Source: Georgenia sp. (lineage in GTDB: Bacteria; Actinomycetota; Actinomycetes; Actinomycetales; Actinomycetaceae). Taken from it: a stretch of 12,761 nucleotides of DNA. The position numbers were made by a program, and so were the translations under genes. The DNA lies in NCBI GenBank assembly GCA_027322565.1, contig DAHVRG010000249.1:1-12761 (forward strand), read 5' to 3'. Of the stretch, positions 5,748-12,761 are shown piece by piece. Below the pieces are notes generated by a model. The model was not told where the DNA came from and ran no database searches. It saw only the letters and a program-made list of their open reading frames with translations. How positions within the stretch are numbered: position 1 is the first letter of the stretch; each line of letters begins with the position of its first letter.

Positions 5748-7508
5748 TCACCGGCCGGTGACGCGCCGGCTGTCGTCCGGCAGCCGGCGCGTCCGGCCGG
5801 TGCGGTCCAGGTGCGCGAGCAGCGCAAGCACCACCCGCCGGCTGGTGCCGAGGTGACGGCGGGCCTGGCTCACGGTGAACGGCTGTGGGAGCGCCGCCAG
5901 CCGCTCGACCGCAAGGTCGTCGGTCCCGGCGAGGAGCACGACCCCGGGTGCCGGCCGCAGCACCAGGCCGGCCCGCGCCGCCGCGGCCTGCACCTTCGCG
6001 TCCAGCCCCAGCGCCGGCAGCTCGTCCGCCGCGGGAGCGGCGAAGGGCTGCTCCGCGAGACGTTCGCCCAGCGCCGCGACCGCGGCCCGGACGGCGGGGG
6101 GCACGTCGTCCGCGTCGTCGAGCACGACGCGGCCGGCCTCCACCCGCAGCGGCGCGGCGACGACGGCGGCCGCCGGCTCCGGGCCGGGGAGCCCGAGCCG
6201 CTCGGCGAGCGCGGCGAGCGTGAGCGGCGGGTCCAGCGGCGCCGAGCGGGCGTGCTCACGGACGACGTCGACCGCCTCGCGGGCGGCTGCGGCCACCCGG
6301 TCCGGGCTGAGGAGCCACCCTCCGGCGCGCACGACATCCGCGTCCGTCCCGTCCACGGGCACCCCGATCCGGGCGAGCAGCGCGGCTGCGACCACGCCGC
6401 GGCGTGCGACCTCGGTCGCGAGGTCGGGCCGGCCGTCGGCGGCGGCCAGCGCCCGTCCACGGGCCCGTGCCGCCCCGCGCCGGCCCAGCGGTGGGGGAGC
6501 GGGGTCGAGCACCGTGACGGCCCAGAGCCGCCGGGTGCCCGGGTCACGCAGCAGCGCCCGGTCCCCCACCCGCAGCGGGAGCCGGCGGTCGAGCAGGAGC
6601 CGGGCGACGCCGGGGGCCAGCGGCCGGTGGTGGACGCCGACCAGCGCCGAGCCGACGTGGAGGACGGGCCGCTGCGGGGCGGCGCCGTCCCCCAGACGCG
6701 GCGGACCGAGCCGCACGTCGACGACGTCGGTGCGGTGCCACGCGCCGGGCGTCACGAGCACGTCGCCGCGCGCGACCGGTGCGTCTCCGGCGAGGTTGAG
6801 CGCCACCCGGGCGACGCCCTCGGCACCCTCGACGTCCCGGCCGAGCGACTGCACCGCCCGCACCCGGTGCTCCGTCCCCTCCGCCTCGAGCCGGTCACCC
6901 GCCGCCACCCGGCCGGCGGGCAGCGTCCCGGTGACGACCGTCCCCGCGCCGGCCACGGTGAAGCTGCGGTCCACCCACAGCCGGACCGGCGCGTCCGTCG
7001 GCGGGGAAGGGAGGGCGGCCACCATCCTCACCAGCGCCGCGCGCAGCTCGTCCAGCCCCTGCCCGGTGCGGGCGCTCAGCGTCACCGCTGGGGCGCCGCG
7101 CAGAGAGGTCGCCGCCAGCTCGGCCAGGGCGCGCTCCCGGGCGGGGCCGGGGTCGGCGAGGTCGGCCCGGGTGACGGCGAGGACGCCGTGCTCCACCCCG
7201 AGCGCGTCGAGGGCGGCGAGGTGCTCGGCCGCCTGGGGCATCCACGGGTCGTCCGCGGCGACGACGAAGAGCACGGCCGGCACGGGTCCGAGCCCGGCGA
7301 GCGTGGTGCTGATGAACCGCTCGTGCCCGGGGACGTCGACGAAGGCGACCTCACGCGCTCCCGGCAGCGTGGTCCAGGCGTACCCCAGCTGGATCGACAG
7401 CCCGCGGCGGTGCTCCTCGGCGAGCCGGTCCGGCTCGGTGCCGGTGAGGGCGCGCACGAGCGCGGACTTGCCGTGGTCCACGTGCCCCGCCGTGGCGACG
7501 ACGTGCAT
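5748..7508 (-). CDS. selB: SelB, selenocysteine-specific translation elongation factor
   Basis: A 586-residue GTPase that carries selenocysteyl-tRNA-Sec to the ribosome and binds the SECIS hairpin of the mRNA. The N-terminal EF-Tu-like G domain shows G1 GHVDHGKS (8-15), the switch I region RRGLSIQLGYAW (34-45), G3 DVPGHE (58-63) and G4 TRAD (113-116). The motif AADDPWMPQAAEHLAALDALG (84-104) is SelB-specific. Beta-barrel domains follow (for example RVAAGDRLEAEGTEHRVRAVQSLG). The C-terminal third carries winged helices, ending with a last one (about 546-586) containing SQARRHLGTSRRVVLALLAHLDR and TRRLP, the RNA-binding end. The ATG at 7508 overlaps the selA TGA by one base (TGATG), implying coupled translation. 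No obvious separate Shine-Dalgarno sequence is present. Length is close to the E. coli protein. Confidence 0.97.
   Translation of the reverse strand: MHVVATAGHVDHGKSALVRALTGTEPDRLAEEHRRGLSIQLGYAWTTLPGAREVAFVDVPGHERFISTTLAGLGPVPAVLFVVAADDPWMPQAAEHLAALDALGVEHGVLAVTRADLADPGPARERALAELAATSLRGAPAVTLSARTGQGLDELRAALVRMVAALPSPPTDAPVRLWVDRSFTVAGAGTVVTGTLPAGRVAAGDRLEAEGTEHRVRAVQSLGRDVEGAEGVARVALNLAGDAPVARGDVLVTPGAWHRTDVVDVRLGPPRLGDGAAPQRPVLHVGSALVGVHHRPLAPGVARLLLDRRLPLRVGDRALLRDPGTRRLWAVTVLDPAPPPLGRRGAARARGRALAAADGRPDLATEVARRGVVAAALLARIGVPVDGTDADVVRAGGWLLSPDRVAAAAREAVDVVREHARSAPLDPPLTLAALAERLGLPGPEPAAAVVAAPLRVEAGRVVLDDADDVPPAVRAAVAALGERLAEQPFAAPAADELPALGLDAKVQAAAARAGLVLRPAPGVVLLAGTDDLAVERLAALPQPFTVSQARRHLGTSRRVVLALLAHLDRTGRTRRLPDDSRRVTGR
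5760..5793. terminator. Strong hairpin at the convergent DHFR-like/selB ends
   Basis: GACGCGCCGGCTG (5760-5772) and CAGCCGGCGCGTC (5781-5793) pair perfectly over 13 bp around an 8-nt loop. It begins 27 bases after the stop of the + strand gene, inside the last codons of selB. The 12-bp palindrome CACCGGCCGGTG (5749-5760) lies next to it. For the + strand it is a plausible terminator without U-tract. For the - strand it lies just before the selB stop, so it would stall transcription only after the gene is nearly complete. Confidence 0.5.
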
Positions 7509-8803
7509 CACACCCGCCCGGCCGCGGCCCGCACCGCCTCGGCGAGCGCGTCGTCCTGCTCCGGCGGGACGGCCAGGAGGTCGAGCAGCAGCCGCCCGCG
7601 GTGGGCGCGGCCGAGCACCGGGCACGCGCCGGTACGCAGCGGGGCGGCGAGCCGGTCGTCGACCGCCACGGCGGCGCTCGGCAGCTCCACCCCGGGAGCA
7701 CCGCCGCCCCCGACGGCGCCGACGCTCTCCACCGCCTCGGCGGCGACGTCGGCCCCCAGCGCCGCGGCGATCGCCCGGGCCCGGCGCAGGAGGTCGGCCG
7801 CGTCGGCGTCCAGCCCGGCGGGGACCGGCGGCACCGGCCCGGTGAGAGTGGCCTCGAGCGCGGCGAGGGTGAGCTTGTCCACCCGGACCGCCCGCGCGAA
7901 CGGGTGCCGGCGCAGCCCCTCGACGACGTCGGCCTCCCCGAGCAGGAGCCCGCACTGTGGCCCGCCGAGCAGCTTGTCACCGGATGCCGTGACGACGGCG
8001 GCCCCGGCCCGCAGCGTGCCGGCGGCGGAGGGCTCGGCCGGCAGCCGGGGGTGCGGCGCCAGGAGACCGGAGCCGATGTCGGCGACGACGGGCACCGGAA
8101 GGGTCGCCAACCGTTCGACCGGGACGCTCGCGGTGAACCCGGTGACCCGGAAGTTCGACGGGTGCACCTTGAGCACGAAGGCGACGTCGTCGTCGACCGC
8201 CGCGGCGTAGTCCTCCAGCCGCACCCGGTTCGTCGTGCCGACCTCCCGCAGCCGGGCCCCGACGGACTCGAGCAGCTCGGGGATCCGGAAGCCGTCCCCG
8301 ATCTCGACGAGCTCCCCGCGGGCCACGACGACGCAGCGTCCCGCGGCCAGCGCGAGCGTCACGAGGGCGAGGGCGGCGGCCCCGTTGTTGACGACGTGGA
8401 CCCCACCGGCGTCCGGCACCGCGCGGGCGAGCGCCGCCAGCGCCCCCCGGCCGCGGCGCCCACGGCGGCCGGTGCCGAGGTCGACCTCGACGTCCGTCGT
8501 CCCGGCTGCGACCTCGAGGGCCGCCACGGCCGCCGGGGAGAGCGGCGCCCGGCCGAGGTTGGTGTGGACGAGCACGCCCGTCGCGTTGATCACCGGGCGC
8601 AGCGTCGTCGCCGTCGCGGGCAGCGCCGCGAGCGTGGCGGCGACGACCTCCTGCGGCCGGACCCGTCCCTGCCGACACTCCTCGATGGCGCGCCGGGCGG
8701 CGTCCTTGACCAGCTGCGGCCCGAGCCGTCCGGCCGCAGCGACGAGGGCCGGGTCGGCAAGGACGGTGTCGGTGCGCGGCGTCGCGCGCCGGTGGTCCAG
8801 CAC
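7508..8803 (-). CDS. selA: SelA, L-seryl-tRNA(Sec) selenium transferase
   Basis: A 431-residue PLP enzyme that converts seryl-tRNA-Sec to selenocysteyl-tRNA-Sec using selenophosphate. The PLP lysine is K277 in SGDKLLGGPQ, the signature of the family. Other landmarks are VINATGVLVHTNLGRAPLS (71-89), VVNNGAAAL (137-145), ARGELVEIGDGFRIPE (161-176), EVGTTNR (187-193), KVHPSNFRVTGF (212-223) and ADIGSGLL (241-248). The start is GTG at 8803, preceded by a strong AGGGAGG (8816-8810 on the - strand) with 6-nt spacing. That Shine-Dalgarno sequence lies in the 21 bases between the tRNA-Sec CCA end and selA. No promoter is visible in between, so selA most likely shares the tRNA-Sec transcript. selB follows with a one-base overlap. 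Confidence 0.97.
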   Translation of the reverse strand: MLDHRRATPRTDTVLADPALVAAAGRLGPQLVKDAARRAIEECRQGRVRPQEVVAATLAALPATATTLRPVINATGVLVHTNLGRAPLSPAAVAALEVAAGTTDVEVDLGTGRRGRRGRGALAALARAVPDAGGVHVVNNGAAALALVTLALAAGRCVVVARGELVEIGDGFRIPELLESVGARLREVGTTNRVRLEDYAAAVDDDVAFVLKVHPSNFRVTGFTASVPVERLATLPVPVVADIGSGLLAPHPRLPAEPSAAGTLRAGAAVVTASGDKLLGGPQCGLLLGEADVVEGLRRHPFARAVRVDKLTLAALEATLTGPVPPVPAGLDADAADLLRRARAIAAALGADVAAEAVESVGAVGGGGAPGVELPSAAVAVDDRLAAPLRTGACPVLGRAHRGRLLLDLLAVPPEQDDALAEAVRAAAGRV

Positions 8804-8824
8804 TACGAGCCTCCCTGGGGTCGG

Positions 8825-8919
8825 TGGCGGAGGCGGACGGGAATCGAACCCGCCTGGCCGAGCTGCTCGACCACAACGGTTTTGAAGACCGCGCCCGTCA
8901 CCAGACGAGGTACGCCTCC
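8825..8919 (-). tRNA. selC: tRNA-Sec (anticodon UCA), CCA encoded
   Basis: A 95-nt selenocysteine tRNA including a genome-encoded GCCA end (8828-8825). Numbering from the 5' G at 8919: acceptor 1-7 with 85-91 pairs perfectly, T8 faces C84 (mismatch) and A9 can pair with T83. The D-stem is 6 bp (11-16 with 21-26) with tetraloop TGGT. The anticodon stem 28-32/40-44 encloses CTTCAAA, with anticodon TCA (+ strand 8883-8885). The extra arm is a long 8-bp stem (47-54 with 58-65) closed by CAG. The T loop is TTCGATT. Six-bp D-stem, long extra arm and UCA anticodon are the hallmarks of bacterial tRNA-Sec. It lies immediately ahead of selA and opposite selD. Confidence 0.97.
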
Positions 8920-8926
8920 GGGGGGC

Positions 8927-8932
8927 AGCGTA
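8927..8932 (-). promoter_or_regulatory. Predicted -10 box for tRNA-Sec/selA/selB
   Basis: On the - strand, TACGCT (TANNNT) lies 7 nt before the first nucleotide of tRNA-Sec. This would place the transcription start at or next to G1 of the tRNA, leaving little or no 5' leader. A -35 element is not clear (GTCGGT at 17-bp spacing is weak). Confidence 0.5.
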
Positions 8933-8947
8933 GCCGCTCGCCGTCCG

Positions 8948-8976
8948 CGACCGACGGTCGTCCGCGGTCGCGCGAC
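8948..8976. repeat. Palindromes between the divergent tRNA-Sec and selD promoters
   Basis: CGACCG-A-CGGTCG (8948-8960) is a perfect inverted repeat, and GTCGCGCGAC (8967-8976) is a perfect 10-bp palindrome, with CCGCGG (8962-8967) touching it. They fill the middle of the 81-bp gap between the two predicted -10 boxes. They may be regulator sites, but chance palindromes are common in such GC-rich sequence. Confidence 0.35.
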
Positions 8977-8987
8977 GCGGGCCCCGC

Positions 8988-8993
8988 TACCCT
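8988..8993 (+). promoter_or_regulatory. Predicted -10 box of selD (leaderless)
   Basis: TACCCT matches TANNNT and lies exactly 7 nt before the GTG at 9001. No Shine-Dalgarno sequence precedes that GTG, so a leaderless selD transcript is likely. The -35 region is not recognisable. Confidence 0.5.
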
Positions 8994-9000
8994 GGCGCCT

Positions 9001-9996
9001 GTGACCACCGCCACGTACCCCGACCTCCGCCTCACCCAGTACGCCGCGGGTGGCGGCTGCGCCTGCAAGGTCCCGCCCGGCGAGCTCGAGCGGGTCCTGG
9101 GCACGCTGCCGGGCAGCACCCACCCCGACCTCCTCGTCGGGATTGAGAACGGCGACGACGCCGCCGCGGTCCGGATCGACGGCAGCCGCGCGGTCATCGC
9201 GACCGCCGACTTCTTCACCCCCGTCGTCGACGACCCCTTCGACTTCGGGCGGATCGCCGCGACGAACGCGCTCTCCGACGTATACGCGATGGGCGGCACC
9301 CCCCTCGTCGCCGTCAACCTCCTCGCCTGGCCGCGCGACCGCATCCCGTTCGACGTCGCCGCCGAGGTCCTCCGCGGCGGTGCGGCCGTGTGCGAGGAGG
9401 CCGGCGTCGTCGTCGGCGGGGGGCACAGCGTCGACGACCGCGAGCCCAAGTACGGACAGGCGGTCACCGGCATCGCCGACGCCGACCGGCTCCTGCGCAA
9501 CGACGCCGGACGCGCCGGCCTGCCGCTCACGCTGACCAAGCCGCTCGGCCTCGGTATCCTCAACAACCGGCACAAGGCGACGGGCGAACGGTTCGCGGAG
9601 GCCGTCGCGGTCATGACGACGCTCAACCGAGAGGCGTCCCGCGCGGCGCTCGCGACCGGCGTCGAGGCCGCCACCGACGTCACCGGCTTCGGGCTGCTCG
9701 GCCACCTGTACAAGCTCGCCCGGGCGAGCGGCGTCAGTGCGGTCGTCGACGCGGCCGCCGTGCCGTACGTCGCCGGTGCCCGGGAGTCCCTCGCCGCCGG
9801 CTACGTCCCCGGCGGCAGCCGCCGCAACCTCGACTGGGTGCGCCCGCACGTCGCCTCCGACGTCGACGACGACGAGCTCCTCCTGCTCGCCGACGCCCAG
9901 ACCTCCGGTGGCCTGCTCGTCGTCGGGGAGCTGCCCGGCCACCCGGTGGTCGGTGAGCTCGTCCAAGCCGAGGAGTGGACCGTCCGGGTGCGCTGA
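9001..9996 (+). CDS. selD: SelD, selenide, water dikinase (selenophosphate synthase)
   Basis: A 331-residue enzyme making selenophosphate from selenide and ATP, the selenium donor for SelA. The start is marked by the leaderless -10 box and by the family N-terminus LTQYAAGGGCACKVPP (11-26). C20 and K23 correspond to the catalytic Cys17 and Lys20 of E. coli SelD. The codon for C20 is TGC, so this SelD is not itself a selenoprotein. Further motifs are ENGDDAAAV (49-57) and ATADFFTPVVDDPFDFGRIA (67-86) with metal-binding aspartates, NALSDVYAMGGTP (89-101), GGGHSVDDREPKYG (139-152), and a late DVTGFGLLGHLYKLA segment. An upstream in-frame ATG at 8824 would run through the tRNA gene and is rejected. 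The gene is divergent from tRNA-Sec/selAB and 92 bases ahead of the formate dehydrogenase. Confidence 0.97.
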   Translation: MTTATYPDLRLTQYAAGGGCACKVPPGELERVLGTLPGSTHPDLLVGIENGDDAAAVRIDGSRAVIATADFFTPVVDDPFDFGRIAATNALSDVYAMGGTPLVAVNLLAWPRDRIPFDVAAEVLRGGAAVCEEAGVVVGGGHSVDDREPKYGQAVTGIADADRLLRNDAGRAGLPLTLTKPLGLGILNNRHKATGERFAEAVAVMTTLNREASRAALATGVEAATDVTGFGLLGHLYKLARASGVSAVVDAAAVPYVAGARESLAAGYVPGGSRRNLDWVRPHVASDVDDDELLLLADAQTSGGLLVVGELPGHPVVGELVQAEEWTVRVR

Positions 9997-10003
9997 GGCA
10001 GCA

Positions 10004-10028
10004 CCGCCCGGCCACACGGAGCCGGCGG
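10004..10028 (+). terminator. Candidate terminator after selD
   Basis: CCG-C-CCGGC (10004-10012, one bulged C) can pair with GCCGGCGG (10021-10028) around an 8-nt loop, starting 7 bases after the selD stop. No U-tract. A promoter-like TACCGT follows at 10058, consistent with separate transcription of the next gene. Confidence 0.35.
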
Positions 10029-10057
10029 GGACGGCTGCGGGTGCCCGGCGTCCGCGC

Positions 10058-10063
10058 TACCGT
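10058..10063 (+). promoter_or_regulatory. Predicted -10 box of the formate dehydrogenase gene
   Basis: TACCGT matches TANNNT. A start about 7 nt later would leave a leader of roughly 18 nt containing AAGGGG (10077-10082), a Shine-Dalgarno sequence 6 nt before the ATG at 10089. Unlike selD and padR, this gene would therefore have a leader. Confidence 0.4.
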
Positions 10064-10088
10064 GACGAGGGACACGAAGGGGTGAGCG

Positions 10089-12761
10089 ATGGCGACGTTC
10101 CTCAACTGGCCCGTGCTGCGCCAGCTGACGGGGACGGACGTGCTCGGCCGCGGCAGGGCCGCCCGCTCCCGCCGCACCGAGGAGCTCACCCCGCGCACGG
10201 CCACCGCCGACCGGGTCGCCCGCAGCGTGTGCCCCTACTGCGCGGTCGGCTGCGGCCAGCGCGTCTTCGTCAAGGACGAGCAGGTCGTCCAGATCGAGGG
10301 CGACCCGGACAGCCCGATCTCCCGCGGCCGACTCTGCCCCAAGGGCGCGGCGAGCAAGAGCCTGGTCACCGGGCCGAACCGCCTGGAGAAGGTCCGCTAC
10401 CGGCGCCCCTACGGCACGGAGTGGGAGGACCTCGACCTCGACACGGCGATGGAGATGATCGCCGACCGCGTCCTGGAGACCCGGGCCCGGACGTGGCAGC
10501 AGACCGACGCGGAGGGCCGCCACCTGCGCCGGACCATGGGCATCGCGGCCCTCGGCGGCGCGACGCTGGACAACGAGGAGAACTACCTCATCAAGAAGCT
10601 CTTCACCGCGATGGGCGCGGTGCAGATCGAGAACCAGGCCCGGATATGACACTCCGCGACGGTCCCCGGTCTGGGGACCAGCTTCGGCCGAGGAGGGGCC
10701 ACCAACTTCCAGCAGGACCTGGCGAACGCTGACTGCATCATCATCCAGGGCTCGAACATGGCCGAGGCCCACCCGGTGGGCTTCCAGTGGGTGATGGAGG
10801 CGAAGCGGCGGGGAGCCAAGGTCATCCACGTCGACCCGCGCTTCACCCGCACGAGCGCGCACGCCGACGTCTTCGTGCCGATCCGCGTGGGGACCGACAT
10901 CGCGTTCCTCGGCGCGGTCATCAACTACGTGCTCCAGCACGAGCTCGACTTCCGGGAGTACGTCCTGGCCTACACCAACGCCGCGACCATCCTGTCCGAG
11001 GACTTCCTCGACACCGAGGACCTCGACGGGCTCTTCTCCGGCTTCGACCCGGAGACCCGCACCTACGACACGACGACGTGGCAGTACGCCGGCACCGAGC
11101 ACACGGGGGAGGACGAGGAGGAGGTCGCCGCCGACCGCGCCACCGCGTCCGGCCTGCAGCACGAGGCGCACGGGATGCCGGTGCCCGAGGAGCCCGAGCG
11201 CGACGAGACGCTCCAGCACCCGCGCACCGTCTACCAGGTGCTCAAGCGGCACTTCTCCCGCTACACGGCCGAGCTCGTCGCGGAGACGTGCGGCATCTCG
11301 GAGGAGCAGTTCCTCGAGGTCGCCCAGGCGTGGGTGGAGAGCTCCGGGCGGGAGCGGACGACGGCGCTGGTCTACAGCGTGGGCTGGACCCAGCACAGCG
11401 TCGGGGCCCAGTACATCCGGGCCGGGTCCATCCTCCAGCTGCTCCTCGGCAACATGGGCCGCCCCGGCGGCGGGATCATGGCGCTGCGCGGCCACGCGAG
11501 CATCCAGGGCTCCACGGACATCCCCACCCTGTTCAACCTGCTTCCCGGCTACCTCGTCATGCCCGACGCCGCGAAGCACCCCGACCTCGCCCGCTGGGTG
11601 GAGGACATGTCGCACCCCGGGGCGAAGGGGTTCTGGGCGGGCACCGACGCCTACGCCACGAGCCTGCTCAAGGCGTACTGGGGCGATGCGGCCACCGCCG
11701 AGAACGACTGGTGCTACGACTACCTGCCGCGTATCGACGGCGACCACGGCACCTACCGCACCGTCCTCGACATGATCGACGGGAAGGTCAAGGGCTACTT
11801 CCTCCTCGGGCAGAACCCCGCCGTCGGCTCCGCCCACGGGAAGGCGCAGCGGCTCGGGATGGCCCAGCTCGACTGGCTCGTCGTGCGGGACCTGTACGAG
11901 ATCGAGAGCGCCTCGTTCTGGAAGGACTCCCCGGAGGTCGAGACCGGGGAGATCGTCACCGAGGAGTGCGCCACCGAGGTCTTCCTCCTGCCCGCCGCCT
12001 CCCACGTGGAGAAGGAGGGCACGTTCACCCAGACCCAGCGCATGCTCCAGTGGCGCGAACAGGCGGTGGAGCCCACCGGCGACCGCCGCTCCGAGCTGTG
12101 GTTCTTCTACCACCTCGGCCGCATCATGCGGGAGCGGCTGGCTGCGAGCGGCGACGAACGCGACCGCCCGCTGCTCGACCTCACCTGGGACTACCCGGTG
12201 CACGGCGCGCACGCCGAGCCCAGCGCCGAGGCCGTGCTCATGGAGATCAACGGCTTCGAGGTCGCGACCGGCAGGCCGCTGTCGAGCTTCACCGAGATGC
12301 GGGCCGACGGCTCCACCGCGGGCGGCTGCTGGATCTACACCGGCGTCTTCGCGGGCGGTGTCAACCAGGCGGCCCGCCGTAAGCCCGGCCAGGAGCAGGA
12401 CTGGGTCGCCCTGGAGTGGGGCTGGGTCTGGCCGGCCAACCGCCGGGTGCTGTACAACCGCGCCTCGGCCGATCCGGCCGGCCGCCCCTGGGATCCGGAT
12501 CGCCGCCTGGTCTTCTGGAACGGCCGGGCCTGGGCCGGCGCCGACGTCCCCGACATGCGCCCCGACGCGAGGCCGGAGGAGGAGGTCGCCCCCTTCATCA
12601 TGAACCCGGAGGGCGTGGGCCGGCTCTTCGCCCTCGGGCTCATGGCCGAGGGGCCCTTCCCCGAGCACTACGAGCCGTTCGAGACCCCGCTGGCCGTGAA
12701 CCCCTTCGGGAAGCGGGCGGTCTCCAACCCGGCCGCCCGCCTCTTCCCCGGCGACCGCGCG
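10089..12761 (+). CDS. fdnG: Formate dehydrogenase alpha subunit, FdnG/FdoG type, selenoprotein (3' end outside window)
   Basis: The catalytic molybdopterin subunit that oxidises formate to CO2. The frame is open for 891 codons to the window end apart from one TGA (10647-10649, residue 187), read as selenocysteine. The 4Fe-4S cluster ligands are C48, C51, C55 and C83 (CPYCAVGC...LCPKG). Sec187 is followed by H188 in ARI-U-HSATVPGLGTSFGRGG, matching the FdnG active site, and R467 in ALRGHASIQGSTD corresponds to the substrate arginine of E. coli FdhF. SNMAEAHPVGFQW and RDETLQHPR are also FdnG-like. There is no twin-arginine signal or hydrophobic N-terminus, so the subunit probably stays in the cytoplasm, unlike E. 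coli FdnG. An acidic segment (about 340-373) looks like an insertion. The ATG is supported by AAGGGG 6 nt upstream. Partner subunits would lie beyond the window. Confidence 0.96.
10647..10649 (+). other. In-frame UGA selenocysteine codon (Sec187)
   Basis: The TGA falls exactly where formate dehydrogenases carry Sec or Cys, directly before the conserved catalytic histidine. Strong family similarity continues in the same frame on both sides, the next 704 codons contain no stop, and a SECIS-like hairpin and the full Sec machinery are adjacent. It should be recoded, not treated as a stop, frameshift or pseudogene. Confidence 0.97.
10661..10679 (+). promoter_or_regulatory. Bacterial SECIS element (selenocysteine insertion hairpin)
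   Basis: GGTCCCC-GGTCT-GGGGACC forms a perfect 7-bp stem with loop GGUCU, beginning 11 nt after the UGA. The E. coli fdhF SECIS, as I recall its sequence, also starts its upper stem 11 nt after UGA and has GGUCU in its loop region, with the guanine and uracil contacted by SelB. The E. coli bulged uracil is absent here: the stem is unbroken. The hairpin lies within coding sequence, and its loop codes for Gly-Leu as in E. coli. Confidence 0.88.

Follow-up and report, generated by a model that had tools for sequence, protein, structure and literature searches.

FdhA and SelD are the most widespread bacterial selenoproteins, and fdhA often lies beside sel genes, according to excerpts of PMC1794560 and PMC5029168. 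The FDH1 cluster of Actinomycetospora chiangmaiensis DSM 45062 combines a selenocysteine (Sec)-containing formate dehydrogenase with FdhB, FdhC, SelA and SelB; formic acid builds up without selenite (molar ratio of about 0.6) and hardly does so with it (excerpt of PMC7176365). The selABCD-fdnG region of Corynebacterium aurimucosum clusters a UGA-containing fdnG with sel genes (excerpt of PMC2830990).

The stretch of Georgenia sp. DNA analyzed here, called the window, is 12,761 nucleotides long and ends within a formate dehydrogenase gene that is accompanied by a sel gene set. The set was absent from the preliminary description of this DNA and is part of the same story. Likened by description and not by sequence, the window resembles FDH1 in having a Sec-type formate dehydrogenase clustered with SelA and SelB; the A. 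chiangmaiensis SelD carries no cluster label in the excerpt of PMC7176365. The likeness to C. aurimucosum is also one of description and not of sequence, and the gene order differs: fdnG comes before selD, selA and selB by locus-tag number (excerpt of PMC2830990), whereas in the window fdhA directly follows selD, with selA-selB on the opposite strand. An fdhA with a sel set is a well-known arrangement, and the locus is a new but ordinary representative of a known kind.

The fdhA reading frame and its internal TGA

The gene and its landmarks are as follows.

10077..10082, + strand: AAGGGG, likely fdhA ribosome-binding site, proposed from the sequence
10089..12761, + strand: fdhA, alpha subunit of a formate dehydrogenase, predicted to contain Sec, truncated at its 3' end where the contig stops, assigned from profile and structure-sequence matches
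10647..10649, + strand: in-frame TGA, predicted Sec codon 187, placed by translation and alignment column

Translation of 10089-12761 starts at an ATG after the AAGGGG and yields 891 residues with exactly one internal stop, the TGA at codon 187, as the preliminary description had stated. Its 891-codon frame is indeed continuous but for this codon; the length is only a lower limit because the contig end cuts the frame at 12761. The stop-to-stop frame at fdhA is 892 aa and measures 1,121-1,456 aa in nine other relatives of the window's family. The full-length protein of the nearest named relative (L009) has 1,099 residues, the genes of two plasmid relatives have 1,111 and 1,055 codons with stops included, and three full-length relatives span 1,054-1,110 aa; a protein of about 1,100 residues would have an estimated mass near 120 kDa.

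The residues around codon 187 read QIENQARI-U-HSATVPGLG. A table-11 ORF list splits the gene into 10089-10649 (186 aa) and 10758-12761 (668 aa, internal ATG, open-ended), the outcome that had been predicted for standard gene calling. The NCBIfam profile NF041513 (formate_DH_Act) covers both halves in one stretch, protein residues 4-886, and scores 1550.4 bits (cut-off 1400) despite the truncated protein. The window's protein is a plain member of this family, and sequence divergence was the only difference found. TIGR01553 (formate dehydrogenase-N alpha) gives 874.5 bits (cut-off 814.2). Comparison with L009 sorts codons 1-186 into 135 same, 34 synonymous and 17 nonsynonymous, and codons 188-877 into 442, 127 and 121, counts that point to constrained substitution on either side of the TGA.

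The best solved-structure match by sequence is the alpha subunit of Escherichia coli FDH-N (1kqf_A, E 1.3e-203). The preliminary description had made its claim depend on the TGA falling inside the Sec/Cys column of such an alignment, and it falls there: residue 187 aligns with the X (= Sec) of 1kqf_A, and likewise in 1h0h_A. The UGA thus occupies the Sec/Cys ligand column and is followed by His.

The column was read across relatives. Among the best 80 of at least 583 named-genome relatives, which were the ones kept, 74 have TGA at this codon and 6 have TAG. The nearest named relatives in this set include Oceanitalea stevensii and Georgenia ruanii. A relative at E <= 1e-80 occurs in 82 of 296 sampled genomes of the class, the window's own counted; a copy with one internal TGA is present in 67 of the 82, and the other 15 have only stop-free copies. 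Nineteen stretches were fetched from the 296-genome table, picked for having no stop or a split frame, and their column holds TGC or TGT in 16 and TGA in 3. Within the window's family a relative was found in 10 of 101 genomes, nine with TGA (window's own included) and one with TGC (L114). The genomes of L009 and L010 have one NF041513 match each above the cut-off, with one TGA inside. Two copies were seen in some genomes: one TGA copy and one Cys copy (L196) in G243, and two TGA copies in G369.

The SECIS hairpin and the Sec-decoding genes

A candidate recoding signal lies just 3' of the TGA.

10661..10679, + strand: putative bacterial SECIS apical hairpin, GGUCCCC-GGUCU-GGGGACC, 7 pairs, 5-nt loop at 10668-10672 starting 18 nt after the UGA

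The 5-nt GGUCU loop, the 7 pairs and the 18-nt distance conform to the rules for loop, stem and spacing given in an excerpt of PMC13188914. Formate dehydrogenase sequences were compared at this site: 178 were read, repeats included (161 TGA/TAG, 17 Cys), and removal of sequences identical over codons 100-299 left 132 Sec-type and 17 Cys-type genes. The inner four pairs form in 132/132 distinct Sec-type genes versus 0/17 Cys-type genes. Codon 193 is CCC in every Sec-type gene versus 1/17 of the Cys type, and codon 194 ends in T in 132/132 versus 3/17; GGT makes up 11% of Gly codons elsewhere in Sec-type genes. Pair 18-30 joins the third bases of codons 192 and 196 and is C-G in 86 genes, U-A in 28, U-G in 10, G-U in 6 and G-C in 2. 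It is paired in 132/132; in 2000 shuffles, which ignore relatedness, the number of paired genes averaged 98.8 and never exceeded 107. Only 70 of the 132 Sec-type genes have the outermost pair.

Part of the hairpin is set by the protein, since two of the seven pairs and some of the GGTCT loops also appear in Cys-type genes (pair 17-31 in 17/17, pair 20-28 in 16/17, loop in 3/17). Rfam SECIS_3 scores 19.7 bits at the fdhA site, far below its gathering threshold of 63, and single-sequence folding of the region is unremarkable (z = -0.73, -1.22 and -0.33 in three cuts). The case for this putative SECIS is made only by comparison across relatives, compensatory third-base changes included. A search for a second UGA-plus-hairpin (33 bases, <=3 mismatches), which misses unlike selenoproteins, found none besides that of fdhA in the window's own assembly, a single draft that is 57% complete and lacks the fdhA 3' end and the partner genes.

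Upstream of fdhA the window encodes the following Sec-decoding components.

5748..7508, - strand: selB, Sec-specific elongation factor with C-terminal winged helix (TIGR00475 246.8 bits, cut-off 242.25; PF00009, PF09107 SelB-wing_3)
7508..8803, - strand: selA, L-seryl-tRNA(Sec) selenium transferase (TIGR00474 387.1 bits, cut-off 267.9; PF03841)
8829..8919, - strand: selC, tRNA-Sec, anticodon UCA (RF01852 82.4 bits, gathering 47; ARAGORN anticodon tca)
9001..9996, + strand: selD, selenide water dikinase, Cys form, GGGCACK (TIGR00476 388.3 bits, cut-off 125)

All four genes that define Sec decoding in bacteria, selA, selB, selC and selD, are therefore present. selB exceeds its TIGR00475 cut-off only just (4.5 bits) and shares one base with the selA stop, and selD ends 92 bases ahead of fdhA on the same strand. 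The tRNA-Sec is the sole match above the RF01852 cut-off among 10 in the window's assembly. A scan of 8780-10150 found neither promoters nor terminators, which says little for an actinobacterium.

With an RNA signal and the required genes right beside it, the UGA is almost certainly read as selenocysteine. In the proposed pathway, SelD would make selenophosphate and SelA would convert Ser-tRNA(Sec) to Sec-tRNA(Sec). SelB carrying Sec-tRNA(Sec) (anticodon UCA) would then bind the SECIS 3' of the UGA, and Sec would be inserted with no termination, as established for such systems. The gene would thus, with very little room for doubt, encode an actinobacterial formate dehydrogenase alpha subunit that contains Sec and bears molybdopterin, with the UGA read as Sec via SelB and the SECIS. 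The central claim of the preliminary description, that codon 187 is Sec and not a stop, holds up on the Sec/Cys column, the hairpin and the tRNA-Sec, SelA, SelB and SelD encoded in the window.

It is extremely improbable that the formate dehydrogenase gene is broken and its TGA reflects genuine termination, a sequencing error or decay. A plain ORF caller does halt at the TGA and the assembly is a single draft; against this, all 80 of the best 80 of at least 583 named relatives, from independent genomes, have TGA or TAG in the column, the 3' hairpin is under third-base constraint and both gene halves are conserved. A pseudogene or sequencing error at codon 187 was ruled out by the independent genomes that carry the same codon. 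It is hardly probable that a near-cognate or reassigned tRNA inserts some other residue at the TGA, for instance Trp or Cys: no point in its support was seen, the window encodes a UCA tRNA-Sec, SelA, SelB and SelD, Sec-type genes retain the hairpin and Cys-type genes do not, and reassignment was ruled out because selA, selB and selD themselves end in TGA, which is thus a stop elsewhere.

Sec genes and tRNA-Sec in relatives

Selenocysteine decoding of the column was followed in the relatives. The 80 named loci (best 80 of at least 583) hold selA, selB and selD together in 20 cases, two of them in 24, one in 9 and none in 27, many of the fetched stretches being short. A selD within 600 bases upstream of fdhA on the same strand is found in 6 of these best 80. 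ARAGORN reports a UCA tRNA-Sec in 9/12 Micromonospora loci, and those nine hold selA and selB.

The six TAG relatives (L068, L073, L080, L081, L084 and L085) belong to Geodermatophilus, Goekera and Modestobacter (four). UAG coding in Geodermatophilaceae has already been published (excerpt of PMC5330540). tRNA-Sec genes were searched for in 12 genomes of kept relatives, six TAG and six TGA. A tRNA-Sec family match with a CTA anticodon was found in 6/6 TAG genomes (tRNAs L098-L102 and L104), each labeled tRNA-Pyl by ARAGORN, and a UCA tRNA-Sec in 5/6 TGA genomes. Codon and anticodon changed together (TAG/CTA versus TGA/UCA), which ties the column-187 codon to tRNA-Sec.

The draft genome of L027 (G010, Micromonospora foliorum) gave no tRNA-Sec above the cut-off, and a Micromonospora tRNA-Sec used as DNA query, which does pick up its counterpart in a sister genome, found none either. 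G010 has two formate dehydrogenase copies with TGA in the column (L027 and L034). The missing tRNA-Sec is likely a draft gap, as the genome is a draft and the L034 contig is only 5 kb.

The Geodermatophilus genome of L068 (G004) has two tRNA-Sec-like genes, L092 and L104; the one with UCA scores 81.8 bits and lies 1.2 kb from the start of a contig, and the one with CUA scores 65.3 bits. The pair may reflect two Sec codons or a stray contig; both are possible. Literature searches returned nothing on UAG with formate dehydrogenase in Geodermatophilus, nor on NrfD in Streptomyces.

Partner subunits, topology and plasmid copies

The window's own partner genes lie past the contig end, and the NrfD-type subunit is known from relatives. 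Downstream of the formate dehydrogenase gene, L009 encodes a 4Fe-4S beta subunit, an NrfD-family membrane protein (PF03916) and a formate/nitrite transporter. Among the best 80 of at least 583 named relatives, loci with room have an L009-like fdhB downstream in 70/70 cases and fdhC in 67/67; the transporter is present in only 3/64.

A twin-arginine signal was sought in 77 sequences, window included, after 4 of 81 were dropped as cut short. By a simple rule in place of a signal-peptide predictor (RR plus a hydrophobic 12-mer within 70 residues before the Fe-S motif), it was found in 0/77. Two mycobacterial sequences (L071 and L082) contain the motif SRRSL alone, with no accompanying hydrophobic stretch.

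The third subunit of E. coli FDH-N is a cytochrome b. The window's protein shares the Sec column with E. coli FdnG (1kqf_A) and passes TIGR01553, so the label "FdnG-type" given in the preliminary description stands for the alpha subunit. It probably does not extend to the complex: unlike FdnG, the window's alpha subunit has no twin-arginine signal before the Fe-S motif by this rule, and the third subunit of the relatives is of the NrfD type (PF03916). On these two grounds the complex is unlikely to duplicate E. coli FDH-N, though the alpha subunit is homologous.

Sec187 would be the Mo/W ligand where formate is oxidized to CO2, by analogy with established enzymes, and the electrons would pass via the 4Fe-4S beta subunit to the NrfD-type membrane subunit, as the subunits seen in relatives suggest. 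Most likely the formate dehydrogenase is bound to the membrane, with a predicted cytoplasm-facing topology, and delivers electrons to the quinone pool. Positions 1-732 of the window hold the 3' part of a gene for a MenD-like thiamine-diphosphate enzyme, cut by the contig start (TIGR00173 56.5 bits, cut-off 244.2); a role in menaquinone synthesis would be in keeping with a formate dehydrogenase linked to quinones.

Two plasmids, Arthrobacter pYA7-1a (L215, typed as conjugative) and Tsukamurella plasmid 17 (L216), carry fdhA with TGA, a 4Fe-4S protein, nrfD, selD, tRNA-Sec (UCA), selA and selB together, and in both the 4Fe-4S protein and nrfD come after fdhA. A third plasmid-collection match (L217) has a frame without a stop and no annotation. 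In the plasmid loci, the formate dehydrogenase and the Sec-decoding genes make up a single portable module.

In the RefSeq records of L215 and L216 the TGA-bearing fdhA is annotated as one read-through CDS. Such a gene had been called easily misannotated, which is right for a plain ORF caller and does not apply to these two intact CDSs. A 2026 review states that pipelines misannotate such genes (excerpt of PMC13188914); misannotation of a TGA-containing fdhA is not inevitable. The locus is a clean worked example for annotation, with a Sec gene split by a naive ORF caller and selB, selA, tRNA-Sec and selD within 5 kb upstream.

Knowledge of selenocysteine decoding is unchanged by this locus. 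The contrast between Sec-type and Cys-type genes gives a sharp putative SECIS signature for the family, CCC-RGU-YUG plus a covarying third-base pair. The balance tips slightly toward a broader reading, in which the lineage's cytoplasm-facing, quinone-coupled formate dehydrogenase (Tat-less FdnG-like alpha subunit, ferredoxin-like beta subunit and NrfD anchor) moves with its own Sec-decoding set as a portable module, also on plasmids. If this is true, the enzyme would be a topological variant of FDH-N and not a copy of it.
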